Notes: generated by a model not told the origin, from the letters alone. Positions 5,274 through 63,745 are shown, counted from the first letter of the stretch. The stretch: 64,000 nucleotides of DNA from Zavarzinia marina (GCF_021568905.1 NZ_JAKGSB010000004.1:124001-188000), one strand, 5' to 3'. Made by a program: numbers and translations.

Positions 5274-5582
5274 TCAGCCGATGATGGCGACGACATCCTT
5301 GTCGTTCGCAATCGCGTAGGTTTCGCGCTGGTCGATCGGCGGCCTGTCGCCGGCGTATTTCGCGATCAGCACGCGGTCTCCAACCGACGGAATGGGTTCG
5401 TTCCAGTCCGCAAATGCATTACCGCCCACGGCGACGAGCGTTCCGGCGATCTGCGCCATCTGCTGCCGTTCTTTGGTGTCATCCGGGACGATGATCCCGC
5501 CGCGCGTCTTCTCCTCGATCGGATCGAGCTTCACGAGCACGCGATACTCGGTTGGAATGATCTTGCTCGGGTCGATTTTCAT
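5274..5582 (-). CDS. Phage-encoded GroES-like co-chaperonin
   Basis: 102 residues covering a full Cpn10 domain. The N-terminal strand PTEYRVLVKLDPIEEKTRGGIIVPD, with a mobile loop at about residues 25-38, is followed by GTLVAVGGNAF, the GDRVLIAKYAG strand and a C-terminal DVVAIIG. Host GroES is about 95 residues, so the length fits. Phage GroES homologues (T4 gp31 type) replace or modify host GroES so that GroEL can fold the capsid protein. The gene lies between portal and scaffold, consistent with a head-assembly chaperone. ATG overlaps the previous stop (ATGA). Confidence 0.8.
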   Translation of the reverse strand: MKIDPSKIIPTEYRVLVKLDPIEEKTRGGIIVPDDTKERQQMAQIAGTLVAVGGNAFADWNEPIPSVGDRVLIAKYAGDRPPIDQRETYAIANDKDVVAIIG

Positions 5583-48096: not shown

Positions 48097-48456
48097 TCAG
48101 TGGCTGATCATCCAGGGGCGTTTCGAGGGGAAACTCTTGGCACCGGACGGCGTCTTCACCGTGGTGCTCTTCTTCTTTCTGGTGGGGACGCAGCAGGAAC
48201 AGCCGGCGCGATGGCTCTTCGCCGCCTGCTTCGCGGCATATTCGCCGACCGACATCGGCGCGTTCCGCGCCTTCTCGTTCGTCTCCATGGCGATCCTGGC
48301 GTCGGTGCCGACGCAGGCCATCATGGGGGCGGTGAAATAGGCGCGCGGCGAAGGATCGCCGCATTCGGGACAGGGGCACGGCAGAGAGGACTCCGCCATC
48401 GGGCGCATCTCTGTGAAGGGGCCACAATCGGTGCAGTCGTATTCGTAGAGCGGCAT
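48097..48456 (-). CDS. fmdB: FmdB-family zinc ribbon regulator
   Basis: 119 residues. N-terminal zinc ribbon YEYDCTDCGPF...PCPCPECG is the FmdB signature, followed by FTAPMMACVGTDARIAMETNEKARNAP. A C-terminal CSCC cluster and lysine-rich tail extend beyond the common 60-110 residue length. FmdB regulates formamidase expression in Methylophilus; here it follows fmdA by about 80 bases in the same direction. Confidence 0.85.
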   Translation of the reverse strand: MPLYEYDCTDCGPFTEMRPMAESSLPCPCPECGDPSPRAYFTAPMMACVGTDARIAMETNEKARNAPMSVGEYAAKQAAKSHRAGCSCCVPTRKKKSTTVKTPSGAKSFPSKRPWMISH

Positions 48457-48536: not shown

Positions 48537-49766
48537 TCACTCGTCGTAGGCGATCGGCATGTCGATGTCGCCGGACAGGAATTTGGTCGGTCCGGCGGCG
48601 GTCGGGTTGATGTCGAAATCGAAGATCGCCGTCGGGATCCACAGGGTCGCGCAGGCGTTCGGGATATCGACGACACCCGAGATATGACCCTGCACCGGTG
48701 CCGTGCCGAGGATCGAATAGGCCTGGGCGCCGGAGAAGCCGAATTTCTTCAGATATTCGATGGCGTTCAGGCAGGCCTGGCGATAGGCGACATGGACGTC
48801 GAGATAGTGCTGGGCGCCGGCCTCGTCGACCGAGATGCCTTCGAAGATGACGTAGTCGTCGTATTTCGGCGTCATCGGCGACGGCTTGAAGATCGGGTTC
48901 TTGATGCCGTATTTGGCCATGCCGTCCTTGATCACGTCGACCTTGATGTGCAGCCAGCCGGCCATCTCGATCGCGCCGCAGAAGGTGATCTCGCCGTCGC
49001 CCTGGCTGAAGTGCAGATCGCCCATGGAGAGGCCGCCGCCCGGGACATAGACCGGGAAGAAGCACTTGGAGCCGCGCGACAGGTCCTTGATGTCGCAATT
49101 GCCGCCGTGTTCGCGCGGCGGCACGGTGCGCGCCCCCTCGGCCGCCGCCTTGTCCTTGGCGTCGCCGGTCATGCGGCCCATGTGGGCGGTGCCGGCGAAG
49201 GGCGCATTGGCGAGCGGCGGCACGCGGGTGGGTTCGGTGGCGATGAAATCGACCTCGCGCTTGTTCCAGGTCGCGAGCAGCTTCGGATCGGGCAGGCAGC
49301 CGATCAGCCCCGGGTGGATCAGGCCGGTATATTTCACGCCCGGAACATGGCGCGAGGTGGTGAACATGCCGTGGAAGTCCCAGATCGACTTCTGGGCGCT
49401 CGGGAAATGCTCGGTCAGGAAGCCGCCGCCGTTGTTCTTCGAGAAGAAGCCGTTGAAACCCCAGAGACTGTCCGGCTTGGCGCCGATGTCGAGGAAATCG
49501 ACGACGAGCAGATCGCCCGGCTCCGCGCCTTCGACGCCGATCGGGCCCGACAGGAAGTGCACGGTGGTGAGGTCGACGTCGCGCACGTCCGAGGCATCGT
49601 CGTCGTTCTTGATGAAGCCGCCGGTCCAGTCGTAGGTCTCGATCACGAAATCGTCGCCCGGCTTCACCCAGGCGACGATCGGGATGTCGGGGTGCCAGCG
49701 GTTGTGGACCATGTCGTTTTCATAGGGCGACGAATTCAGATCCACTTCGATCAGGGTCTTGGGCAT
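48537..49766 (-). CDS. fmdA: Formamidase
   Basis: 409 residues from ATG 49766 (AAGGGAGAG upstream). FmdA/AmdA family: HNRWHPDIPIVAWVKPGDDFVIETYDWTGG, GPIGVEGAEPGDLLVVDFLDIG, GLIHPGLIGCLPD, HMGRMTGDA, GGNCDIKDLSRGSKCFFPVYVPGGGLSMGDLHFSQGDGE with metal-ligand residues, and AYSILGTAPVQGHISGVVDIPNAC. Hydrolyses formamide to formate and ammonia. Downstream of the amide/urea transporter operon and evidently part of it. Confidence 0.95.
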   Translation of the reverse strand: MPKTLIEVDLNSSPYENDMVHNRWHPDIPIVAWVKPGDDFVIETYDWTGGFIKNDDDASDVRDVDLTTVHFLSGPIGVEGAEPGDLLVVDFLDIGAKPDSLWGFNGFFSKNNGGGFLTEHFPSAQKSIWDFHGMFTTSRHVPGVKYTGLIHPGLIGCLPDPKLLATWNKREVDFIATEPTRVPPLANAPFAGTAHMGRMTGDAKDKAAAEGARTVPPREHGGNCDIKDLSRGSKCFFPVYVPGGGLSMGDLHFSQGDGEITFCGAIEMAGWLHIKVDVIKDGMAKYGIKNPIFKPSPMTPKYDDYVIFEGISVDEAGAQHYLDVHVAYRQACLNAIEYLKKFGFSGAQAYSILGTAPVQGHISGVVDIPNACATLWIPTAIFDFDINPTAAGPTKFLSGDIDMPIAYDE

Positions 49767-49798: not shown

Positions 49799-50488
49799 TT
49801 ACACGGCGAGGAAGCGGCTGATGGTCGCCTCGTCCACCTCGTCGCGGGTGTTCTCGTGGACGATGCGGCCGTTCTCGATGACCAGGATGCGATCCGCGAC
49901 GTCGAGCACGAAGCTCAGCACCTGCTCGCACACGACGATGCAGAGGTTGGTCATGTCGCGGATCTGGCGCAGCACCTTGGCCATGTCCTTGATGATCGAG
50001 GGCTGGATGCCCTCGGTCGGCTCGTCGAGGAGCAGGATCTTCGGATCGGTCGCGAGCGCCCGCGCGATGGCGAGCTGCTGCTGCTGGCCGCCCGAGAGAT
50101 TGCCGCCCCGGCGCTTGGCGAATTCCTTGAGGATCGGGAATATCTCGTAGAGCTCCGGGGGCACTTCCTTCCGGCCGGAGACGATCAGGCCGGTCTCGAT
50201 ATTCTCCTTCACCGTCATGGTGCCGAAGATCTGGCGGCCCTGCGGGACATAGGCGATGCCCTGCTTCACGCGCTGGTGCGAGGCGAGTTTCTGCACCTCG
50301 AGATCGCCGAGCGAGACCGTGCCCGACGCCGTCGGCAGGATCCCGACCAGCGATTTCATCAGGGTCGACTTGCCCATGCCGTTGCGGCCGACCACGGCGA
50401 CGATCTCGCCGGGGGCAACCTTGAAATCGAGGCCGTGGAGCACTTCGCTCTGGCCATAGCAGACCTTGAGGTCACGAACGTCGAGCAT
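49799..50488 (-). CDS. urtE: Urea/amide ABC transporter ATP-binding protein UrtE
   Basis: 229 residues, branched-chain-type ATPase. Walker A VVGRNGMGKSTLMKSL, YVPQGRQIFGTMTVKENIETGL, signature LSGGQQQQLAIARAL, Walker B ILLLDEPTEGIQPSII. Starts 15 bases after urtD and ends 33 bases before fmdA. The sub-family matches UrtE by size and by EGIQPSII. Confidence 0.9.
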   Translation of the reverse strand: MLDVRDLKVCYGQSEVLHGLDFKVAPGEIVAVVGRNGMGKSTLMKSLVGILPTASGTVSLGDLEVQKLASHQRVKQGIAYVPQGRQIFGTMTVKENIETGLIVSGRKEVPPELYEIFPILKEFAKRRGGNLSGGQQQQLAIARALATDPKILLLDEPTEGIQPSIIKDMAKVLRQIRDMTNLCIVVCEQVLSFVLDVADRILVIENGRIVHENTRDEVDEATISRFLAV

Positions 50489-50503: not shown

Positions 50504-51265
50504 TCAATGGCCGAGATAGACTTCGCGGACCTTCGGGTCTTCCTGGATCTTGTCCATGCGACCCTCGGCCAGCACCTTGCCCTGGTGGAGCACCGTGACC
50601 CTGTGGGCGATCGATTCGACGAACTTCATGTCGTGCTCGATCACGATCACGGCGCGGCCCTCGATGATCCGGTTCAGGAGCTCGGCGGTCTTCACGCGTT
50701 CCGCGACGCTCATGCCGGCGACCGGCTCGTCGAGCATGAGGAGCTCGGGGTCCTGGATCAGCAGCATGCCGATCTCCAGCCACTGCTTCTGGCCGTGGCT
50801 GAGGATTTCCGCCTTGGTGTTCAGATGCTCCTTCAGGAAGATCATGTCAGCGATCTCGTCGATCCGGTCGGCGACCTCGGCCGTGCGCCGAAAGCCGAGG
50901 GCGCCGAACACCCCCCTTCCCTTCGGATAGGAAATCTCCAGATTCTCGAGCACCGTCAGATCCTCGTAGATCGAGGGATTCTGGAACTTGCGGCCGATGC
51001 CGAGGCGCACGATCTCGTGTTCCTTCAGCTTGGTCACCTCGGTGTCCTTGAAGGCGATGGAACCTTCCGAGACCTTGGTGCGGCCGCAGATCAGATCGAG
51101 CACCGTGGTCTTGCCGGCGCCGTTCGGGCCGATGATCACGCGGAGCTCGCCCTTCTGGATGTAGAGCGACAGGTCGTTGACCGCCTTGAAGCCGTCGAAG
51201 GAGACCGTGACGCCCTCGAGTGCCAGAAGGATGTCGCTTTCGACGACGGGACCGATGTGGGGCAT
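50504..51265 (-). CDS. urtD: Urea/amide ABC transporter ATP-binding protein UrtD
   Basis: 253 residues. Walker A IIGPNGAGKTTVLDLICG, FQNPSIYEDLTVLENLEISYP, LSHGQKQWLEIGMLL signature typical of UrtD, Walker B LLMLDEPVAGMS, and VIVIEHDMKFVESIAHRVTVLHQGKVLAEG. Cytoplasmic partner of UrtE in the urea/short-amide transporter. Confidence 0.9.
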   Translation of the reverse strand: MPHIGPVVESDILLALEGVTVSFDGFKAVNDLSLYIQKGELRVIIGPNGAGKTTVLDLICGRTKVSEGSIAFKDTEVTKLKEHEIVRLGIGRKFQNPSIYEDLTVLENLEISYPKGRGVFGALGFRRTAEVADRIDEIADMIFLKEHLNTKAEILSHGQKQWLEIGMLLIQDPELLMLDEPVAGMSVAERVKTAELLNRIIEGRAVIVIEHDMKFVESIAHRVTVLHQGKVLAEGRMDKIQEDPKVREVYLGH

Positions 51266-51277
51266 GGCGTCCTCCCG

Positions 51278-52411
51278 TTATTCCGCGAGCTTGGTGACCG
51301 CGGGTTCCGGCGGCGGCGTCTTCTTGTCGCCGAGGAACACCTTGGACAGGAAAGGCACCACATAGTCGTCCACCAGGCCGGCGAGGCCGCGGGGGAAGAA
51401 CAGGGTGACACCGATGAAGAGACCGCCCATGGCGAAGAGCCAGAGTTCGGGGAACATCTCGGAGAAGGTGGTTTTCGCCGCATTGACGATGAGGGCGCCG
51501 AGCACGGCACCGATCAGCGACAGGCGGCCGCCCAGCGCGCAGAAGATCACCATCTCGATCGAGGGCACGATGCCGATGATGGTGGGCGACATGAAGCCGA
51601 CCTGCAGGGTGAACATCGCCCCGCCGACACCGGCCAGCGCCGCCGCCACGCAGAAGACGAAGACCTTGAAGTTGGCGACGTCGTAACCCGAGAAGCGCAC
51701 CCGCTCCTCTTTGTCGCGGATCGCGACCAGGATGCGGCCGAGCTTGGACTTCAGGACGAAGCGGCCGAGCAGGATGCAGACGAGAAGCAGGGCGACGCAG
51801 ATGAAGTAGAGGATGTTGTGCGCCTCGTCCGTCCTGATGTCCCAGCCAAGCAGGGTGCGCAGGTCGGTGATGCCGTTGATGCCGCCGGTGTAACCCTGCT
51901 GGCCGATGATCAGGATGGTCAGAACCGCCGTGACCGCCTGGGTGATGATGGCGAAATAGACGCCGCCGACCCGGCGCTTGAACATCGCGTAGGCCAGGAT
52001 GAAGGCGACCGCCGCCGGCACCGCCATGATGGCGATCACGGTGAAGGCGAAGGAATGGAACGGCTCCCAGAAGAAGGGGAGTTCGGTGAGCTGGTTCCAG
52101 TCCATGAAGTCGGGAATGCCCGGGGTGGACTGGATCGCCGTGTTCTCGGGGGTCGAGGCTTCGAGCTTCAGGAACATGGCGATGCAATAGCCGCCCAGGC
52201 CGAAGAAGATGCCCTGCCCCAGGCTGAGGATGCCGGTATAGCCCCAGCACAGCACCAGCCCGAGGACGACGAAGCCGAAGGACAGATATTTGCCGACCAG
52301 ATTCAGGCGGAAATCGTCCAGCACGGCGGGAAAGACCAGGATCAGCAGGGCCGAGAGCAGGACGAAGCCGAGCCAGTTGGAGGCGAGCGATCGGAGCTTT
52401 GCGTTCGTCAT
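51278..52411 (-). CDS. urtC: Urea/amide ABC transporter permease UrtC
   Basis: 377 residues, about ten transmembrane helices. LCWGYTGILSLGQGIFFGLGGYCIAMFLKLE, GGVYFAIITQAVTAVLTILIIGQQGYTGG and FSGYDVANFKVFVFCVAAALAGVGGAMF are LivM/UrtC signatures. Fixed order urtA-B-C-D-E is preserved. Ends 12 bases before urtD. Confidence 0.9.
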   Translation of the reverse strand: MTNAKLRSLASNWLGFVLLSALLILVFPAVLDDFRLNLVGKYLSFGFVVLGLVLCWGYTGILSLGQGIFFGLGGYCIAMFLKLEASTPENTAIQSTPGIPDFMDWNQLTELPFFWEPFHSFAFTVIAIMAVPAAVAFILAYAMFKRRVGGVYFAIITQAVTAVLTILIIGQQGYTGGINGITDLRTLLGWDIRTDEAHNILYFICVALLLVCILLGRFVLKSKLGRILVAIRDKEERVRFSGYDVANFKVFVFCVAAALAGVGGAMFTLQVGFMSPTIIGIVPSIEMVIFCALGGRLSLIGAVLGALIVNAAKTTFSEMFPELWLFAMGGLFIGVTLFFPRGLAGLVDDYVVPFLSKVFLGDKKTPPPEPAVTKLAE

Positions 52412-52416
52412 GGACC

Positions 52417-53340
52417 TTACCTCCGCACCTTGAGGACGAAGAGACCCTGCGGCCGCAGCATGAGGAGGCCGATCACGATGAGGAGCGTGATCACCTTGGC
52501 CATGGAGCCGGACAGGAAGAATTCGAGGGCCGACTGGCTCTGCGAGATGGTGAAGGCCGAGGCGACGGTGCCGAGCAGGCTCTGCGCGCCGCCGAAGACG
52601 ACCACCAGGAAGGTGTCGACGATGTAGAGCTGGCCGGAGGTCGGACCGGTCGAGCCGATCATGGTGAAGGCCGCCCCCGCGACGCCGGCGACCCCGCAGC
52701 CGAGGCCGAAGGTCATGCGGTCGACGCGCCGCGTGTCGATGCCGACGGCGCCGGACATCACGCGGTTGGTGGTCACGGCGCGGACCTGCAGGCCCCAGCG
52801 CGACTTGAACAGGAGGACGAGCACGGCGACGGTGATCGCGGCGGTCAGCGCCATGACGAAGAGACCGTTCACCTGCACCTCGACCGTGTCGGTCACGGCC
52901 AGCGAGCCCATCATCCAGTCGGGCAGTTCGACGCCGACTTCACGGGCACCGAAGGTCGAGCGGTAGATCTGCTGCAGGATGAGGCTGAGGCCCCAGGTGG
53001 CGAGCAGCGTATCGAGCGGGCGGGCATAGAGGTGACGGATCATCACCCATTCCACCAGCAGCCCGAGCGCCCCCGACACGATGAAGGCGAACACCATGGC
53101 GACGAAGAAGTAAGCCGGATAGGCGAAGGGCAGGAAGTCCTGGAACAGATGCGAGGTCAGATAGGTGACATAGGCACCGAGGATCATGAACTCGCCGTGC
53201 GCCATGTTGATGACGCCCATCTGGCCGAAGATGATGGCGAGCCCGAGCGCCATCAGGATGAAGACCGAAAACAGGATCAGCCCGGCGAAGCCTTGCATCA
53301 CCAGGATCGAGCTCAGCTCGGAAAAAGTGTAATCGAACAT
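52417..53340 (-). CDS. urtB: Urea/amide ABC transporter permease UrtB
   Basis: 307 residues, about eight transmembrane helices. GQMGVINMAHGEFMILGAYVTYL, LVEWVMIRHLYARPLDTLLATWGLSLILQQIYRSTFGAREV and RTRRVDRMTFGLGCGVAGVAGAAF-like region are LivH/UrtB markers; no extended periplasmic N-terminus as in some UrtB. Separated from urtA by 144 bases that hold a palindromic repeat. Confidence 0.9.
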   Translation of the reverse strand: MFDYTFSELSSILVMQGFAGLILFSVFILMALGLAIIFGQMGVINMAHGEFMILGAYVTYLTSHLFQDFLPFAYPAYFFVAMVFAFIVSGALGLLVEWVMIRHLYARPLDTLLATWGLSLILQQIYRSTFGAREVGVELPDWMMGSLAVTDTVEVQVNGLFVMALTAAITVAVLVLLFKSRWGLQVRAVTTNRVMSGAVGIDTRRVDRMTFGLGCGVAGVAGAAFTMIGSTGPTSGQLYIVDTFLVVVFGGAQSLLGTVASAFTISQSQSALEFFLSGSMAKVITLLIVIGLLMLRPQGLFVLKVRR

Positions 53341-53484: not shown

Positions 53485-54756
53485 TTATTGGTAGCCTTCG
53501 GGGAACGGATTGGGTTCCACCAGGTCGGCGGTCTCGTAGACGACGTCGTACTGGCCGTCCGTGCGGGCACGGCCGACGCGGGTCTTGGACCACAGGTGGT
53601 GGTTCTCGTGGATCCGGACGTAACCTTCCGGCGCCCCCGTGAATTCGATCCCCGGCGAGGCGGCGGCCACCTTGTCGATGTCGAAGGAGCCCGCCTTCTC
53701 GACCGTGAGCTTCCACAGCCAGGGGCCGAGATAGGCGGCCTGGGTAACGTCACCGATAACGATGTCCTTGCCCCACATCTCCTTGAAGGCCGAGACGAAC
53801 TTCTTGTTGTTCTCGTTGTCGAGCGACTGGAAGTACTTCATGCAGGCATAGGCGCCGACGATGTTCTCGCCGCCGATGCCGAGGATTTCGTCCTCGGTGA
53901 CCGAGATGGTCAGCAGGGTCTGCTTGTTCTCGAGATCGAAGCCGGCGGCCTTCAGCTGCTTGTAGAAGGCGACGTTGGAGCCGCCGACGATGATCGCGTA
54001 GATCACGTCCGGCTTCTTCAGCTTGATCTTGTTGATGGCGGAGTTGAACTGCGTGTGGCCCAGCGGGAAATATTCCTCGCCCACGACCTTCAGCTTCAGG
54101 AAGTTCTCGATGTGCTTCCTGGCGATCTTGTTCGAGGTGCGCGGCCAGATGTAGTCGGAGCCGAGCAGGTAGAAGCTCTTCGCACCCTTCTCCTTCACCA
54201 CCCAGTCGAGGCCGGCGATGATCTGCTGGGTCGCTTCCTGGCCGGTGTAGATGACGTTCTTCGACTGCTCCAGGCCTTCGTAGAAGGTCGGGTAGTAGAG
54301 CATGCCGTTGTACTGCTCGAACACCGGCAGCACCGCCTTCCGCGAAGCCGAGGTCCAGCAGCCGAAGACCGAGGCGCATTTGTCCTGCACCAGGAGCTTC
54401 TTCGCCTTCTCGGCGAAGGTCGGCCAGTCGGAGGCGCCGTCTTCCTGGATGTATTTGATCTTGCGGCCGAGAACGCCGCCCATGGCGTTGATCTGGTCGA
54501 TCGCCAGCTTCTCGGCCTGGACCGAACCCGTCTCCGAGATCGCCATGGTGCCGGTGACCGAGTGCAGGATGCCGACCGTCACTTCGGTGTCGGTGACCGC
54601 GAGGCCGGTGGTGTTCACGCCGTCGGCCGCGAAGCTCGATCGGGCCATGCCGCCGCCGAAGGCCGCGACGGCCGGAACCGCCGCCATGCCCTTCAGCAGC
54701 TTGCGCCGCATCGGCGAAGTAAGGCCCTTGTTGTTGCTGGTGTCGTCGGTTGCCAT
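53485..54756 (-). CDS. urtA: Urea/amide ABC transporter substrate-binding protein UrtA
   Basis: 423 residues. The N-terminus has a twin-arginine motif (MRRKLLKGMAAVPAVAAFGGG), so export may be through Tat. Mature signatures: VTVGILHSVTGTMAISETGSVQAEKLAIDQINAMGGVLGRKI, YYPTFYEGLEQSKNVIYTGQEATQQI, FYLLGSDYIWPRTSN, LGHTQFNSAINKI. Family members bind urea or short amides; the neighbouring formamidase favours amides. First gene of a seven-gene operon. Confidence 0.9.
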   Translation of the reverse strand: MATDDTSNNKGLTSPMRRKLLKGMAAVPAVAAFGGGMARSSFAADGVNTTGLAVTDTEVTVGILHSVTGTMAISETGSVQAEKLAIDQINAMGGVLGRKIKYIQEDGASDWPTFAEKAKKLLVQDKCASVFGCWTSASRKAVLPVFEQYNGMLYYPTFYEGLEQSKNVIYTGQEATQQIIAGLDWVVKEKGAKSFYLLGSDYIWPRTSNKIARKHIENFLKLKVVGEEYFPLGHTQFNSAINKIKLKKPDVIYAIIVGGSNVAFYKQLKAAGFDLENKQTLLTISVTEDEILGIGGENIVGAYACMKYFQSLDNENNKKFVSAFKEMWGKDIVIGDVTQAAYLGPWLWKLTVEKAGSFDIDKVAAASPGIEFTGAPEGYVRIHENHHLWSKTRVGRARTDGQYDVVYETADLVEPNPFPEGYQ

Positions 54757-54847: not shown

Positions 54848-54865
54848 ATACGCAGAACTGCGTAT
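54848..54865. promoter_or_regulatory. Palindrome ATACGCAG-AA-CTGCGTAT, candidate response-regulator site
   Basis: Perfect 8-base arms around AA in the 246-base divergent region between urtA and the NCS1-kinase gene. Further copies of its core are CTGCGTAT at 54917-54924, GACGCA/TGCGTC at 54881-54899 and TTGCGT near 54928. A LuxR-type regulator encoded next to the kinase is the obvious candidate to bind. Confidence 0.6.
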
Positions 54866-54880
54866 ATGCAGCGCAGCAAT

Positions 54881-54932
54881 GACGCACCAAGCTTGCGTCA
54901 GGGTACCGTGAGGGGTCTGCGTATACTTGCGT
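54881..54932. promoter_or_regulatory. Cluster of TGCGT/ACGCA half-sites
   Basis: GACGCA (54881), TGCGTC (54894), CTGCGTAT (54917) and TTGCGT (54927) repeat the half-site of the neighbouring palindrome. Together with that palindrome there are six copies in about 90 bases, far more than expected for a promoter spacer. -35/-10 boxes could not be placed with confidence. Confidence 0.5.
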
Positions 54933-55002
54933 CCTCGGGCTTCGGGACGGAACTATGACGCCTACGGTCGGATGGGCCCGATCGGTTCGTTAGGGAAGAG
55001 GG

Positions 55003-58000
55003 ATGTCGGCACGACAGCGCATCGTCCGGGTGCGCCGCCAATATAACCAGTGGGTCGCCAACCAGACGCTGGAAGACTACGCGCTTCGCTTCACCGCCAA
55101 GGGCGCGCGGCGCTGGTCGGCCTTTCGCGTGGCCAACACCTCGCTGGGCGCCATTTCCTTCCTGGCGCTGGAGGCGATCGGCGGCACCATCACGCTGTCC
55201 TACGGCTTCAGCAACGCCACCATGGCGATTCTCGTCGTCGGCGCCCTGATCGCGCTCACCGGCATCCCCATAGCCTATTACGCCGCACGCTATGGTGTCG
55301 ACATCGATCTCCTGACACGCGGTGCTGGCTTCGGTTACATCGGCTCCACCCTGACGTCGCTGATCTACGCCTCCTTCACCTTCATCTTCTTCGCGATCGA
55401 GGCGGCGATCATGGCGCTCGCGCTCGAGATGATGTTCGGCCTGCCCCCTTCGCTGGGTTACATCGTCTGCTCGATCGCGGTGATTCCCGTCGTCACCCAC
55501 GGCATCACATGGATCAGCCGCGTGCAGATGTGGACCCAGCCGTTCTGGATCATCCTGCACCTGATGCCCTTCGTCTTCCTGGCGCTGTCGGGCAGCGACG
55601 TCTTCGATGCCTGGCATGCCCATACCGGGCGCCATGGTCCGCCCGACGGCGGCCTGGACGTGATCGCCTTCGGCCTTGCCGCCTCTGTCGTGTTCTCGCT
55701 CGTCGCGCAGATCGGCGAACAGGTCGACTTCCTGCGTTTCCTGCCCGCCAATCCGACCACCCCGCGCGAGAAGGTGGGCTGGTGGGCTGCCCTTCTGGCG
55801 GCGGGGCCGGGCTGGGCCGTGCTCGGCGTCCTGAAGATGCTGGCGGGCTCCCTCCTCGCGGTCTTCTGCGTCCAGCAGGGGGTCGCGCTGTCCTCGGCGG
55901 CGGAACCGACCCAGATGTATCTGGTCGCCTTCGGGACCATGTTCCAGGACCCGTCCGTGGCGCTGGGGGTCACCGGCATCTTCGTCGTGCTGTCCCAGTT
56001 CAAGATCAACGTCACCAACGCCTATGCCGGCTCCATCGCCTGGTCGAACTTCTTCTCGCGCCTGACCCACAGCCATCCCGGCCGCGTCGTCTGGCTGGTG
56101 TTCAACGTCGCGATCGCCCTGATGCTGATGGAGCTCGGCATCTATCACGCGCTGGAGCGCATCCTCGGGCTCTATTCGGTGATCGCCATCGCCTGGGTCG
56201 GCGCCATCGTCTCCGACCTGATCGTGAACAAGCCCCTGGGCCTCAGCCCCAAGCACATCGAGTTCAAGCGCGCCCATCTCTACGACATCAACCCGGTCGG
56301 CGTCGGCTCCATGCTGATCGCCACCGGTTCCGCCTCGATCGCGCTGTTCGGCTTCTTCGGGGCCGAAATGCAGGCCCTCGCCCCCTTCCTCGCCCTCTTC
56401 GTCGCCTTCACGACGGCGCCCGTGATCGCCTTCGTCACGCGCGGGCGCTACTACATCGCGCGCACGCCCCGGCGCAACTGGCGCTCCCGCAAGTCCATCG
56501 CCTGCTGTATCTGCGAGCATCAGTTCGAGCCCGAGGACATGGCCTATTGCCCTGCCTATGGCGGACCCATCTGTTCGCTGTGCTGTTCGCTGGACGCCCG
56601 CTGCCACGACGGCTGCAAGGACAAGGCGCGCATTCCGGACCAATTGCTCGGCATGCTCGGCACCATCCTGCCGGCGCGGGTGGTCGACCGCCTGAATTCG
56701 CGCCTCGGCCACTACATCGGCATCCACGCGATCGCCGCCAGCGTGATCGGGCTGACCCTGTGGCTGGTCTATTTCCAGAGCACGCTCGACGTCGGCGGCC
56801 ATGATCCGCGCCTCGCCGGGCTGATGTGGTCGATCTTCTTCATCCTCTTCATCATCACCGGCGTCGGCGCCTGGCTCTTCGTCCTGGCGGAGGAGAGCCG
56901 CCATGTCGCGCAGGAGGAATCGGGCCGCCAGACCACGCTTCTGATGCAGGAGATCGAGGCCCACAAGATCACCGACGCCAAGCTGCAGAAGGCGAAGGAA
57001 GCGGCCGAGGGCGCCAATCTGGCCAAGACCCGCTATGTCGTCGGCATCAGCCACGAATTGCGCACGCCCCTGAACGCCATCTTCGGCTATGCCCAGCTTC
57101 TCGACCGCGACCCCGCCATGCCGCCCCACCGCCAGGACGCGGTGAAGGTGATCCAGCGCAGCGCCGAACATCTGACCGGCCTGATCGAGGGGCTCCTCGA
57201 CATCTCGAAGATCGAGGCCGGGCGCCTGCACCTGCACCGCGACGAGGTCCAGCTCGACGATTTCCTGGACCAGATCGTCGGCATGTTCCGCCTGCAGGCC
57301 GAGGGCAAGGGCATCGACTTCGTCTTCGACCGCACCCCGAACCTGCCCCAGGTCGTCTATACCGACGAGAAGCGCCTGCGCCAGATCCTGATCAACCTTC
57401 TGTCCAACGCCCTCAAGTTCACGCGCCAGGGCCATGTCGCGCTTCGGGTGCGCTATCGCAACCCGGTCGCCGAATTCGAGGTCGAGGATACCGGCATCGG
57501 CATCCACGCCGAGGACCTGCACCGGATCTTCGATCCCTTCGAGCGCGGGCGCCAGCCGAACGCCATCGCCGCCCTCGGCACCGGCCTCGGCCTGACGATC
57601 ACGAAATTGCTGACCGAGATCATGGGCGGCGAGATCGCCGTGACTTCCAGTTTCGGCAAGGGCAGCACCTTCAAGGTGCGCCTGCTGCTCTCGGCTTCGG
57701 TCCGGGCCGTGCCGGAACCGCGCGAGCGCGGCCGCGAGCCGGTGATCACGGGCTTCGAGGGACCGCCGCGCACCGTCCTCGTCGCCGACGACGAAGTGAT
57801 GCACCGCGACCTGATCCAGGAGGCGCTGTCGCCCGTCGGCTTCACCGTGTTCAGCGCGCCCGACGGCGCGAGCTGCCTCGAACTCGCGGGCCTGACCCAG
57901 CCCGATCTCGTCCTCCTCGATCTCTCGATGCCGGACATGAGCGGCTGGGAGGTGGCGCGGCAATTGCGCGCCCGGCCCGGCCCGCAGCCCGCCATCGTCA

Positions 58001-58413
58001 TCGTCTCGGCCAATGCCAACGAATATCGCGCCGGCAGCCATCCCGACGATCCCCACGACGATTTCATCGTGAAGCCGGTCCATCTGCGCCGGCTGTTCGA
58101 GACCATCGGCCGGGTGCTGAAGATCACCTGGACCCACGAAGAGGCGGCCGTGTCCGCGCCCCCGGGCGGCGGCGGGATCGCCTTCGACCGGCAGGGCATA
58201 CCGTCCGGCCGGCATCTGGAGGAATTGCTCAAACTGGGCGAAATCGGCTATGTGCGCGGCATTCAGGCCAAGCTCGACGAAATCGACCAGCAGTGTCCCG
58301 AAGCCCAGGCCTTCACGACGACCCTGCGGTCCATGGTGAGAGGATTTGCCCTAGATGAATACATGGACATCCTGCGCCGCCTTGCGTCCGGTGGAACCCA
58401 TGACGGCACGTGA
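55003..58413 (+). CDS. NCS1 permease-histidine kinase-REC fusion (transporter-sensor)
   Basis: 1136 residues. Residues about 20-490 form a complete NCS1 purine/cytosine-permease-like domain with 12 membrane helices (FRVANTSLGAISFLALEAIGG, GFGYIGSTLTSLIYASFTFIFFAIEAAIMALAL, INVTNAYAGSIAWSNFFSRL). A cysteine-rich segment (501-538; CCICEHQF, CSLCCSLDARCHDGC) follows, then two membrane helices, a coiled coil, HisKA with His684 (ISHELRTPLNAIFGYAQ), HATPase (LINLLSNALKF, VEDTGIGIH, GTGLGLTI) and a REC domain with Asp973 (LVLLDLSMPDMSGW). Presumed to sense or import a nucleobase, urea-like or amide ligand and signal nitrogen status. The next gene encodes its response regulator. Confidence 0.85.
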   Translation: MSARQRIVRVRRQYNQWVANQTLEDYALRFTAKGARRWSAFRVANTSLGAISFLALEAIGGTITLSYGFSNATMAILVVGALIALTGIPIAYYAARYGVDIDLLTRGAGFGYIGSTLTSLIYASFTFIFFAIEAAIMALALEMMFGLPPSLGYIVCSIAVIPVVTHGITWISRVQMWTQPFWIILHLMPFVFLALSGSDVFDAWHAHTGRHGPPDGGLDVIAFGLAASVVFSLVAQIGEQVDFLRFLPANPTTPREKVGWWAALLAAGPGWAVLGVLKMLAGSLLAVFCVQQGVALSSAAEPTQMYLVAFGTMFQDPSVALGVTGIFVVLSQFKINVTNAYAGSIAWSNFFSRLTHSHPGRVVWLVFNVAIALMLMELGIYHALERILGLYSVIAIAWVGAIVSDLIVNKPLGLSPKHIEFKRAHLYDINPVGVGSMLIATGSASIALFGFFGAEMQALAPFLALFVAFTTAPVIAFVTRGRYYIARTPRRNWRSRKSIACCICEHQFEPEDMAYCPAYGGPICSLCCSLDARCHDGCKDKARIPDQLLGMLGTILPARVVDRLNSRLGHYIGIHAIAASVIGLTLWLVYFQSTLDVGGHDPRLAGLMWSIFFILFIITGVGAWLFVLAEESRHVAQEESGRQTTLLMQEIEAHKITDAKLQKAKEAAEGANLAKTRYVVGISHELRTPLNAIFGYAQLLDRDPAMPPHRQDAVKVIQRSAEHLTGLIEGLLDISKIEAGRLHLHRDEVQLDDFLDQIVGMFRLQAEGKGIDFVFDRTPNLPQVVYTDEKRLRQILINLLSNALKFTRQGHVALRVRYRNPVAEFEVEDTGIGIHAEDLHRIFDPFERGRQPNAIAALGTGLGLTITKLLTEIMGGEIAVTSSFGKGSTFKVRLLLSASVRAVPEPRERGREPVITGFEGPPRTVLVADDEVMHRDLIQEALSPVGFTVFSAPDGASCLELAGLTQPDLVLLDLSMPDMSGWEVARQLRARPGPQPAIVIVSANANEYRAGSHPDDPHDDFIVKPVHLRRLFETIGRVLKITWTHEEAAVSAPPGGGGIAFDRQGIPSGRHLEELLKLGEIGYVRGIQAKLDEIDQQCPEAQAFTTTLRSMVRGFALDEYMDILRRLASGGTHDGT

Positions 58414-59308
58414 CATCGTTCTCGTCGTCGACGATTCGCCCGGCACCCTCGGCATGCTGACGGACGCGATCGAAGAGGCGGGGCTGACCGTGCTCGTCGC
58501 CGTCGCCGGCAGCGCCGCCCTCGGCCTGGTCGAGAAGATCACGCCCGACGTCATCCTGCTCGACGCCATCATGCCCGGCATGGACGGTTTCGAGACCTGC
58601 CGCCGGCTGAAGCGCATCCCCGCGATCGCCCATGTCCCGGTGATCTTCATGACCGGGCTTTCGGAGACGGAGCACATCGTCGAGGGCTTCGGCGCCGGCG
58701 GCGTCGACTATGTGACGAAACCGATCTCGCCCGACGAGCTGGTGGCGCGCATCCGCGTCCATCTGGCGAACGCCCGCCTGACCCAGAGCGCGCGGGCGGC
58801 GCTGGACGCGACCGGGCGCTACCTCCTCGGCGCCGACCGCGAGGGCCGCATCCTCTGGGCGACGCCCCAGGCGAGCCGGCTGCTGGAAGGCTGGTGCGGC
58901 GGCGAGGTCCTGCCGGCGGAGACGGCGCAGTGGATCGCGGCGCTGGCGACCGCCGAAGGCACGCCCCAGCGCTTCGCCCCGCCGCCGGGCGCGGACGGCC
59001 GCAAGATCCAGTTCGGTTTCGTCGGCCGCACCGGGCCCGACGAATTCCTGCTGCAGATGGCCGAGATGGATCAGCCGGCCCAGGAACTGGTGCTGCGCGA
59101 GAAGCTGGGCCTGACCGCGCGCGAGGGCGAGGTGCTGATGTGGCTGGCGCGCGGCAAGTCGAACCGCGACATCGCCGAGATCCTGGGGCTTTCGCCGCGC
59201 ACGGTGAACAAGCACCTGGAGACGATCTACGACAAGCTGGGCGTCGAGAACCGCACCGCCGCCGCCATGCTGGCGCTGCGCACCCTGGACGGCGATCGCC
59301 AGGCCTGA
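58400..59308 (+). CDS. Response regulator, REC-PAS-like-LuxR HTH
   Basis: 302 residues from ATG 58400, overlapping the kinase gene by 14 bases. REC domain with phospho-acceptor Asp55 (VILLDAIMPGMDGFE), Thr in FMTGLSE and Lys in YVTKPISPDEL. A middle segment (YLLGADREGRILWATPQASRLLE, PDEFLLQMAEMD) looks like a small PAS-type domain. The C-terminal LuxR/FixJ helix-turn-helix is complete (LTAREGEVLMWLARGKSNRDIAEILGLSPRTVNKHLETIYDKLGV). Probable output of the NCS1-kinase, acting on the divergent urt-fmd promoter. Confidence 0.85.
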   Translation: MTARDIVLVVDDSPGTLGMLTDAIEEAGLTVLVAVAGSAALGLVEKITPDVILLDAIMPGMDGFETCRRLKRIPAIAHVPVIFMTGLSETEHIVEGFGAGGVDYVTKPISPDELVARIRVHLANARLTQSARAALDATGRYLLGADREGRILWATPQASRLLEGWCGGEVLPAETAQWIAALATAEGTPQRFAPPPGADGRKIQFGFVGRTGPDEFLLQMAEMDQPAQELVLREKLGLTAREGEVLMWLARGKSNRDIAEILGLSPRTVNKHLETIYDKLGVENRTAAAMLALRTLDGDRQA

Positions 59309-60163: not shown

Positions 60164-63100
60164 ATGAGCACCTGGGATTTCTGGATCGACCGTGGCGGCA
60201 CCTTCACCGACATCGTGGCCCGCCGGCCCGACGGCAAGGTGGTGACCGCCAAACTCCTGTCGGAAAATCCCGAGCAATACGAGGATGCCGCGGTCGAGGG
60301 CGTGCGCCGCCTGCGCGCCAGCCAGCCGGACGCCCCGATCGGCGCCGTGAAGATGGGCACCACCGTCGCCACCAACGCGCTTCTGGAGCGGAAGGGCGAA
60401 CGCGTCCTCCTCCTCGTCACGCGCGGCTTCGCCGATGCGCTGCGCATCGCCTATCAGAACCGGCCGCGCATCTTCGCCCTCGATATCGAATTGCCCGAAC
60501 TGCTGCACGAGCGCGTGGCGGAAGTGGACGAGCGGGTCAGCGCCACGGGCGAGATCCTGACTCCGCTGGATGAGACGAGCGCCCGCACCGCCCTCGCCGA
60601 AGCCTTCGCCGACGGGATCCGCGCCGTCGCCGTGGTCCTCCTGCACGGCTATCGCTTTCCCGATCACGAGGCCCGCCTCGCCGAGCTGGCGCGCGAGATC
60701 GGCTTCACCCAGATTTCCACCGGCCATGGCACCAGCCCCCTGATGAAGCTGATCGGCCGGGGCGACACCACGGTCGTCGATGCCTATCTCTCGCCCATCC
60801 TGCGGCGCTATGTCGATCTTGTCGCGGCGGCGCTGGGCGACAGTCGGCTGATGTTCATGCAATCGTCCGGTGGCCTGACCGATGCCCGCCTGTTCCAAGG
60901 CAAGGACGCGATCCTGTCCGGCCCCGCCGGCGGCGTCGTCGGCGCCGCGCGGACGGCGGCGCAGGTCGACGAGCACCGCATCATCGGCTTCGACATGGGC
61001 GGCACCTCGACCGACGTCTGCCATTTCGCCGGCGGTTACGAACGCGCCTTCGAGACCCTGGTGGCCGGTGTCCGCATCCGGGCCCCGATGATGGCGATCC
61101 ATACGGTCGCGGCGGGCGGCGGCTCGATCCTCGCCTTCGACGGCTCGAGGCTTCGGGTCGGGCCGGACAGCGCGGGCGCCAATCCCGGCCCCGCCGCCTA
61201 TCGCAGGGGCGGGCCCCTGACCGTGACCGACGCCAACGTCCTTCTGGGCAAGCTGATCCCCGCGCGCTTTCCCGCCGTCTTCGGCGCGCACGCCGATCAG
61301 CCGCTCGACGCCGACGCCGTCCGCGCCGCCTTCGAGACCCTGGCCGCCCAGGTCGCCGAAAGCGGCAGCGCCAAATCGCCCGAGGATCTGGCGGACGGCT
61401 TCGTCGCCATCGCGGTCGAGAACATGGCCAATGCGATCAAGAAGATCTCGGTCCAGCGCGGTCATGACGTCACGGCCTATACGCTGCAATGTTTCGGCGG
61501 CGCCGGCGGCCAGCATGCCTGCCTGGTGGCTGAATCGCTCGGCATGCGCCGGGTCATGCTGCATCCCCTGGCCGGGCTGCTGTCGGCCTATGGCATGGGC
61601 CTGGCGGACATCGCCGCGACGCGCGAGGAAGCGGTCGAACGCCTGCTGGACGATCCCGCCCACGACGCCGTCTACCGCCGCCTGACCGAACTCGGCCGCG
61701 AGGTCCTGGGCGAGGTGCTGCGCCAGGGCGTCCCGCGCGAGGCGATCACCATCAGCCGCCGTGTCCTCCTGCGTTACGAGGGAACGGACACCGCGCTGAT
61801 CGTCGATTTCGGCCAGATCCCGACGCTGCGCGCCGATTTCGAGGCCGCGCACCGTGCCCGCTTCGGCTTCATCGACGAGGGACGGCGCCTGGTGATCGAG
61901 GCGCTGGCGATCGAGGCGTCGGGCGGCGGCGCCACGATCGAGGACGCGGAACGCCCCGCCCGCCCCGAGGGCGAGACGGTTCCCATTGCCGAGACCACGC
62001 GCTTCTTCTCCAAGGGCGAATGGCGCGAGGCTTCGGTGGTCGAGCGGGCCGCGCTGATGACCGGCGACACCGTCCCCGGCCCCGCCATCGTGATCGAGGA
62101 TCATTCCACGATCGTGGTCGAACCGGGCTGGCATGCCCGCATGGGCGCGACCGGCGTCCTCTTCCTCGAAGGCGGGGGAACGGACATGCGCGCCGCCGTC
62201 GGCACCGAGCGCGACCCGGTGATGCTGGAGGTCTTCAACAATCTCTTCATGTCGATCGCCGAACAGATGGGCCTGACGCTGGAGAAGACCGCCCATTCGG
62301 TGAACATCAAGGAACGGCTCGATTTCTCCTGCGCGATCTTCGACGCCAGGGGCGGGCTGGTCGCCAATGCGCCGCACATGCCCGTGCACCTGGGCTCCAT
62401 GTCGGAATCGGTCGAGACCGTGATCCGCGGCCATGGCGATCATATGCGGCCGGGCGACGCCTATATGCTGAACGCGCCCTATAACGGCGGCACCCATCTG
62501 CCGGACGTCACGGTGATCGCGCCGGTGTTCGACCGGGCGGGACGCCATGTGATCTTCTATGTCGCGGCGCGCGGCCATCAGGCCGACATCGGCGGCATCA
62601 CCCCGGGTTCCATGCCGCCCCATTCGACCAGCGTGACCGAGGAAGGCGTGCTGATCGACAATGTCCCCCTGATGGCGGGCGGGCGTTTCCTCGAGGACGA
62701 GGTGACGGCGCTGCTGACCTCGGGCCCCTATCCGTCCCGCAACATCGTCCAGAACCTGGGCGACCTGAAGGCCCAGGTCGCGGCCTGCGAGAAGGGCGCC
62801 CAGGAATTGCTGGCCATGGTCGACCAATACGGCCTGGACACGGTCCACGCCTATATGCGCCACGTCCAGGACAATGCGGCGGAAGCGGTGCGCCGGGTGA
62901 TCGACCGGCTGCACGACGGCGCCTTCGTGGTCGGGATGGACAATGGCGCGCATATCGCCGTCGCCATAAGGGTCGATCGCGCCGCGCGCCGCGCCACGGT
63001 CGATTTCACCGGCACGTCCGACCAGTTGCCCAGCAATTTCAACGCCCCCTTCGCGGTGGTGAAGGCGGCCGTGATCTATGTCTTCCGCACCCTGGTCGAC

Positions 63101-63745
63101 GACGACATTCCCCTGAACCAGGGCTGTCTGGAGCCGATCGACATCGTGGCCGCCGAAGGTTCCATGCTGCGCCCGCATTATCCGGCGGCCGTGGTCGCCG
63201 GCAATGTCGAGACCAGCCAGGCGATCTGCGACGCGCTCTATGGCGCCCTGGGCGCCATGGCGGCGGCCCAGGGCACGATGAATAATTTCACCTTCGGCAA
63301 CGACCGCCACCAATATTACGAGACGATCTGCGGTGGCGCCGGCGCGGGGCCCGATTTCGACGGCTGCGACGCCGTCCACACCCATATGACCAATTCCCGC
63401 CTGACCGACGTCGAGGTGCTGGAATGGCGCTTCCCCGTGCTGGTGGAGCATTTCGGCATCAGGCGCGGCTCCGGCGGGGCCGGGCGCCATCACGGCGGCG
63501 ACGGCGTGGTCCGCGCCGTCCGCTTCCGCGAGGCGATGACTTCGGCCATCCTGTCCGACAGGCGGCGGGTGCCGCCCTTCGGCCTCGACGGTGGCGCACC
63601 CGGCGCCTGCGGCATCAACCGCCTGACGCGGGCCGACGGCACAGAGGAAATATTGCCCGCCTGCGTCGAGGTCGAGGTCGGCCCCGGCGACGTGATCACG
63701 ATCGAGACGCCGGGCGGCGGCGGCTTCGGCCCGCCGGAGGACTGA
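60164..63745 (+). CDS. 5-oxoprolinase (fused HyuA-HyuB type)
   Basis: 1193 residues, the length of ATP-dependent 5-oxoprolinase. The HyuA half (1-680) has [41 protein letters not shown] and [16 protein letters not shown]; the HyuB half (690-1190) has [64 protein letters not shown], and a terminal [13 protein letters not shown]. Opens 5-oxoproline to glutamate, or a related hydantoin/oxoproline. Lies near other nitrogen genes, though after a leftward gene. Confidence 0.9.

Follow-up and report, generated by a model that had tools for sequence, protein, structure and literature searches.

Few transporter-kinase fusions are known, and the open-access literature covers studies of the SLC5 and Amt types alone. 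In the SLC5-STAC kinases CbrA, CrbS and RpuS, a LeuT-fold transporter domain is fused to a kinase or hybrid kinase with a nutrient-linked regulon. A lysine of CbrA, K196, fills the Na2 site and its transport is sodium-independent (PMC13022988). In the ammonium sensor kinase Ks-Amt5, a transporter has turned into a kinase-coupled sensor and lost the transport (PMC5764959). Transporter-kinase 'transceptors' are already known, and what is new here is a variant with an NCS1-type fold. A search of open-access papers found none on this kinase.

The variant is encoded in the window, by which we mean the whole analysed stretch of 64,000 nucleotides from Zavarzinia marina (NZ_JAKGSB010000004.1, 124001-188000). 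Its domain order, fold, conservation and gene linkage, as well as an inverted repeat and its placement, were computed directly. The kinase and its partner are laid out as follows.

55003..58413, + strand: NCS1-like permease, eight-cysteine module and hybrid histidine kinase in one protein of 1136 aa (ORF, Pfam, two AlphaFold2 models, fold searches)
55066..56445, + strand: permease fold, residues 22-481, 12 TM helices, nearest to CodB and Mhp1 (model, fold comparison, positive-inside loops)
56497..56622, + strand: cytosolic module with eight invariant cysteines, residues about 499-540 (conservation in 61/61, model)
56701..56898, + strand: TM helices 13 and 14, spanning residues about 567-632 and continuing into the kinase (model helices 567-597 and 602-661)
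57028..57222, + strand: HisKA with phospho-accepting His684 (Pfam, conservation)
57361..57690, + strand: HATPase_c with N, G1 and G2 boxes (Pfam, conservation)
57775..58107, + strand: REC domain with Asp973 (Pfam, conservation)
58400..59308, + strand, alternative start 58355: REC-LuxR response regulator overlapping the end of the kinase gene (ORF, Pfam)

A preliminary description of this DNA had proposed HisKA, HATPase and REC domains behind two extra membrane helices and an adjoining REC-LuxR regulator, and all of these were borne out. Pfam matches HisKA at residues 676-740, HATPase_c at 787-896 and REC at 925-1035. His684, in the motif HELRTP, is kept in all 61 dereplicated relatives and Asp973 in 59 of the 61, so the protein has the phospho-accepting histidine, the HATPase boxes and the receiver aspartate of a hybrid histidine kinase. 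Both extra helices are seen in the model. The regulator has a REC domain and a C-terminal GerE helix-turn-helix by Pfam, as in the NarL/LuxR type. Shorter kinase relatives of 883-885 aa are without the receiver (L147:7999-10656 and L148:7663-10314), and fmdA-like genes adjoin them.

The architecture resembles that of CbrA, CrbS and RpuS in the LeuT-fold domain, the fused kinase and the nutrient link. However, they have an SLC5 domain, a STAC or PAS linker and carbon or amino-acid regulons, whereas here an NCS1-like domain is followed by the eight-cysteine module and two helices. These occupy the position of the STAC linker, for which the Pfam and NCBIfam scans gave no match. Ks-Amt5 is alike in that a nitrogen-compound transporter serves as the kinase-coupled sensor, but it is a trimer of the Amt fold with a kinase lacking REC.

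The N-terminal part had been described as a full NCS1 permease-like domain. The fold and a sequence link to NCS1 uphold this, but the Pfam signature does not: neither PF02133, the profile of the NCS1 family TC 2.A.39, nor any other relevant Pfam model matched residues 1-637 in any of 17 family members at E up to 1. The SSF Pfam model matched neither the kinase nor the 17 members, and a PDB sequence search with residues 1-637 found no transporter. Weak PDB profile matches, with RING and BCL11A zinc-finger chains at E 5.5-6.9, were discounted as random.

Structure prediction, suggested earlier as a check, together with fold searching supported the NCS1-type fold with CodB and Mhp1 closest. Two AlphaFold2 models, the first built from 17 relatives (pLDDT 76, pTM 0.76) and the second from 58 (pLDDT 84, pTM 0.85), both adopt a 12-helix LeuT-type fold. 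NCS1 structures topped both Foldseek searches, with CodB at E 1e-9 for the first model and Mhp1 at E 6e-10 for the second. In structural alignment, CodB and Mhp1 scored Z 33.3 and 29.2 with the first model, and 30.6 and 27.3 with the second. The best non-NCS1 LeuT-fold family reached only Z 24.4, and the SSS structures ranked below NCS1 with Z up to about 23.5 versus 30-33.

A sequence bridge to NCS1 is provided by a stand-alone permease of 497 aa (L144:7949-9442), found with the domain profile at E 5.9e-43 and itself matching PF02133 at 3.6e-9. Profile-profile alignment gave E 2e-23 against an NCS1 protein set that includes this bridge and E 8e-8 against CodB-like sequences alone. By these tests, the permease domain is NCS1-derived, yet it is no canonical NCS1 transporter. 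The stand-alone permease belongs to an amide cluster (L144:7949-12984), with a carbon-nitrogen hydrolase, an AmiC-like binding protein and an AmiR with ANTAR domain encoded next to it. It is a candidate amide permease, with an arginine at the Na2 position.

CodB sandwiches its substrate between Trp108 and Phe204, two residues kept across NCS1 proteins, and Thr278 and Thr279 of TM8 supply part of its sodium site (PMC9379551). Mapped by profile alignment at 17-20% identity (under 20%), well anchored by the TM8 motif, Trp108 becomes Phe129 here (Leu in some urea-linked relatives) and Phe204 becomes an invariant Leu233, leaving the kinase domain without the NCS1 aromatic sandwich. Thr278 and Thr279 are replaced by Lys334 (61/61) and Ile335 (60/61), so the Na2 hydroxyls are gone as well. 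The Lys334 position holds Arg in the L144 permease and Lys in another permease relative, L146. K196 of CbrA likewise sits in the Na2 site, its equivalent here being on TM8 by alignment.

Fold and TM8 motif are otherwise shared with CodB and Mhp1, including the conserved asparagine (CodB Asn280, here Asn336). The differences, at 14-20% identity, are the missing clamp, the missing Na2 hydroxyls and the fused kinase. The TM8 stretch KINVTNAYAGS-AWSN is nearly invariant in the family, and it is the inner residues of TM3, TM6 and TM8 that are invariant. The lack of the clamp and the invariant lysine at Na2 together suggest that the domain works without sodium and that its pocket is not shaped for aromatic rings. 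Judged from its residues, the domain is probably a sodium-independent receptor, and perhaps still a carrier, for small amides.

No ligand-specificity residue is claimed, because the pocket positions compared between five urea-linked lineages revealed no common switch. G61A occurs in three of them, F129L in two and in one member of a third, and T338A/M in two.

Nucleobases, allantoin and hydantoins had earlier been offered as ligand leads, and an alternative is that the domain is a receptor for one of them, with the amide genes induced within a purine or hydantoin nitrogen response. The closest solved structures indeed carry cytosine and hydantoin, and a fused hydantoinase/oxoprolinase A+B protein of 1193 aa is encoded near the regulator (window 60164-63745). 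But both aromatics conserved in NCS1 are replaced, the neighbours in Pseudomonadota are urea and amide genes rather than purine genes, and the hydantoinase is present in only one of 168 loci, for which it was rejected as a ligand clue. The leads are weakened by the lost sandwich and the unconserved neighbour, and we regard this alternative as highly improbable.

Between the permease and the kinase, cysteines 501, 504, 516, 524, 527, 528, 534 and 538 are invariant in 61/61 dereplicated relatives, in the pattern CX2C-X11-C-X7-C-X2-CC-X5-C-X3-C. The nine-cysteine segment of the preliminary description is thus nine in count but eight in conservation, Cys502 being variable among the 61. In the model, the module consists of short strands and then a helix, an arrangement like that of small zinc folds. 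By the positive-inside pattern of the loops, the N-terminus, the module and the kinase are all cytosolic, and TM13-TM14 lie between the last two.

The invariance of the eight cysteines, with the clamp and the Na2 site both lost, would also suit a main sensor of metal or redox state in the module beside a degenerate permease domain. However, the permease is very well conserved and its TM8 nearly invariant, which is unlike a degenerate domain, and gene linkage follows the substrate rather than any pathway for metals or redox state. The module as the main sensor is accordingly hard to credit.

Divergent from the kinase lies an operon for uptake and hydrolysis, predicted earlier as urtABCDE-fmdA-fmdB and now found in that order.

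53485..54756, - strand: UrtA-type binding protein, amide subtype, with F and V at the urea-binding Gln144 and Asn246 (NCBIfam, residue comparison)
52417..53340, - strand: urtB-type permease (NCBIfam)
51278..52411, - strand: urtC-type permease (NCBIfam)
50504..51265, - strand: urtD-type ATPase (NCBIfam)
49799..50488, - strand: urtE-type ATPase (NCBIfam)
48537..49766, - strand: fmdA formamidase (NF045496, 764.8 bits)
48097..48456, - strand: fmdB, FmdB-type small protein of 119 aa (named by similarity and position)

All of urtA-E and fmdA score above the NCBIfam cut-offs, UrtA with 545.4 bits against TIGR03407 (cut-off 492.75). In Prochlorococcus UrtA, urea is hydrogen-bonded by Ser122, Gln144, Tyr190 and Asn246 (PMC10392092). 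The window UrtA has two of these four replaced. Together with its relatives in the kinase loci, it has Phe at 144 in 125/126 and Val at 246 in 126/126, while both Gln144 and Asn246 are kept in 12/12 urea-type UrtA. Val at 246 is shared by the amide receptor AmiC. With two urea-binding residues lost, the ligand of the window UrtA is probably a short-chain amide. For this clade, made up of the window protein and 126 relatives, the database name 'urea ABC transporter' is probably wrong, and the family studied here flags it as a set of 'urea' binding proteins likely to bind amides.

Elsewhere in the genome, on a different contig, lies a urease operon accompanied by a complete urt set of the urea type (37-53% identical). 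For the Bradyrhizobium cluster blr0968-0973, the available part of an earlier study suggested from gene context that such a transporter carries formamide or acetamide (PMC3098086). Taken with the residue losses, the separate urea system and this suggestion, the window cluster is best read as one for short-chain amide uptake and hydrolysis. As far as the window transporter is concerned, the preliminary 'amides or urea' therefore probably holds for amides rather than for urea. A third UrtA-like protein of the same genome (L103:7858-9084, contig C2) has Glu at the Gln144 position and keeps Asn246. The gene adjoins that of an 870-aa protein joining GntR, aminotransferase, MOSC and rubredoxin domains (L103:4862-7474), which is followed downstream by a 2Fe-2S gene.

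In the available parts of PMC3098086 and PMC13209695, the AmiC-AmiR system and the fmd/urt amide clusters are alike in substrate class and enzymes, and the kinase is not mentioned. AmiR acts by antitermination, as opposed to the two-component signalling proposed here.

The kinase-regulator pair divergent to urtABCDE-fmdA-fmdB is the order common to nearly all of 80 loci taken from genome_contigs, an unevenly sampled set with many Bradyrhizobium. Among 398 sampled Pseudomonadota genomes, 54 had a match and 51 the kinase proper. It was present in all 37 genomes with amide-type urtA (E under 1e-130; 15 families) versus 14 of the 361 others, in raw counts that ignore phylogeny. A search for homologous fusions without a link to nitrogen genes, which might have undone the proposed link, left it standing with this co-occurrence and synteny. 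The wiring to amide and urea genes is far better supported than the preliminary description could know. One genome, G051, has the kinase pair without the repeat or nearby nitrogen genes.

Elsewhere, the pair adjoins urease genes, urea-type urt or both, and at locus L111 it lies beside urea carboxylase, allophanate hydrolase, a porin and urea-type urt. Neighbours were classed by BLAST over a distance of about 9 kb, and a quick maximum-likelihood tree requires no fewer than five changes of the urea label on branches with good support. Amide genes beside the kinase have given way to urea genes five times or more. An amide-linked and a urease-linked paralogue coexist in each of four genomes (G419, G545, G398 and G334), so that specificity is testable by swaps.

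The urtA gene is divergently adjacent in most loci and the amide subtype always co-occurs with the kinase, which would fit also if ligand-loaded UrtA or the working ABC transporter signalled to the kinase, with the permease domain as a docking or transmembrane module. Kinase and regulator would control the cluster all the same. Signalling from a binding protein to a kinase is a known theme, as in ChvE-VirA and TorT-TorS. But the short extracellular loops of the permease leave little docking surface, and the invariant inner residues of TM3, TM6 and TM8 are those expected of a binding pocket. Moreover, the urease-linked loci L150, L151, L155 and L161 have no urtA within the fetched stretch. We consider this route unlikely, if less so than the other alternatives.

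The gap between urtA and the kinase holds a candidate operator.

54848..54865, no strand: inverted repeat ATACGCAGAACTGCGTAT with half-sites laid out 7-2-7, a proposed operator for the regulator (conservation across loci)

Position 54848, where the preliminary description had its feature begin, is the first base of this perfect 18-bp inverted repeat. The perfect form occurs once in the 3.95-Mb genome, in this gap. Of 44 representative gaps that separate the kinase from urtA or ureA, 27 contain TACG-8-CGTA against a shuffled expectation of 0, and none of the other half-site spacings from 2 to 13 was found more than once. Across 53 dereplicated loci, exact copies of the 16-bp core TACGYN6RCGTA number 36 upstream of target genes and three elsewhere. 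With one mismatch allowed, 42 of the 53 have a site upstream of a target, compared with 0 to 8 for eight control palindromes. We take the 7-2-7 layout to resemble that of NarL-type regulators. The earlier proposal that kinase and regulator control urt and fmd gains support from this conserved, putatively operator-like repeat.

The targets behind the repeats are urt, fmdA, porin, urease or allophanate-hydrolase genes. The repeat precedes fmdA in four loci and urea-type urtA in L153, L159, L178, L180 and L196. At L111, it stands both before the allophanate hydrolase-urea carboxylase genes and in the gap between the kinase and the porin-urt genes. The repeat stands before the kinase where the pair is solitary, in G033, G162 and Tistrella (L257) alike, and G033 and G162 have one-mismatch repeats before a distant amide urtA. 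Scans of the urtA-kinase gap for sigma-70 promoters and terminators found nothing. A sigma-54-like -24/-12 element (TGGCA-N-TGC) points to the kinase in the gaps of L150, L151, L153, L155 and L161, and the window has none.

The repeat is absent in 11 of the 53 loci, five of them urea-linked. This leaves room for the repeat to belong to a different regulator, the kinase pair being a linked passenger with another role, since its binding by the adjoining regulator is our inference and adjacency need not mean control. However, the repeat also precedes the kinase where the urt genes sit elsewhere (L105, L106 and L257), and it recurs with the kinase in independently assembled urea clusters (L111, L153, L159, L178, L180 and L196). 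Ownership by another regulator is the least credible of the alternatives.

Our main reading, with a probability of roughly two in three, is a transporter-derived amide sensor whose REC-LuxR partner activates urtABCDE-fmdA-fmdB and its own operon via the repeat. The NCS1-like domain would bind a small amide of the formamide or acetamide type (urea in the urease-linked relatives), either from the periplasm or during uptake should it still transport. The conformational change would reach the cytosolic cysteine module and, through TM13-TM14 and the long-helix connector, the hybrid kinase. The phosphate would then pass to the REC-LuxR partner, which would bind the ATACG-N8-CGTAT repeat between the divergent operons and activate both.

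More broadly, the family may represent an uncharacterised and widespread transceptor class, NCS1-derived without sodium coupling or clamp, that itself senses urea or short-chain amides and passes the signal via an eight-cysteine metal module to a hybrid kinase. It would have been rewired between amide and urea at least five times with the operator largely kept. We advance this wider proposal tentatively, as slightly more doubtful than not. The family adds a third transporter fold to the known fusions, along with ligands predicted to be very small molecules and a predicted operator. It would explain how the use of formamide, acetamide and urea is controlled in many Pseudomonadota, including Bradyrhizobium, Sinorhizobium and Azospirillum.

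The system is found on plasmids as well. A relative of the N-terminal part of the kinase is present in 524 plasmid records, 342 of them from Klebsiella and 306 predicted to be conjugative. The conjugative IncF plasmid NZ_CP022923.1 of Klebsiella pneumoniae (L255) carries urtABCDE, formamidase, the kinase, an uninterrupted regulator match and the repeat, and transposase genes flank the set of kinase, regulator, urt and formamidase. Annotations of the plasmid kinase in Klebsiella go no further than 'ATP-binding protein' or 'ArcB'.

At the other end of the window, about 300-29100, many short genes in a phage-like order, with a GroES-like ORF at 5274-5582, look by eye like a prophage or similar element.
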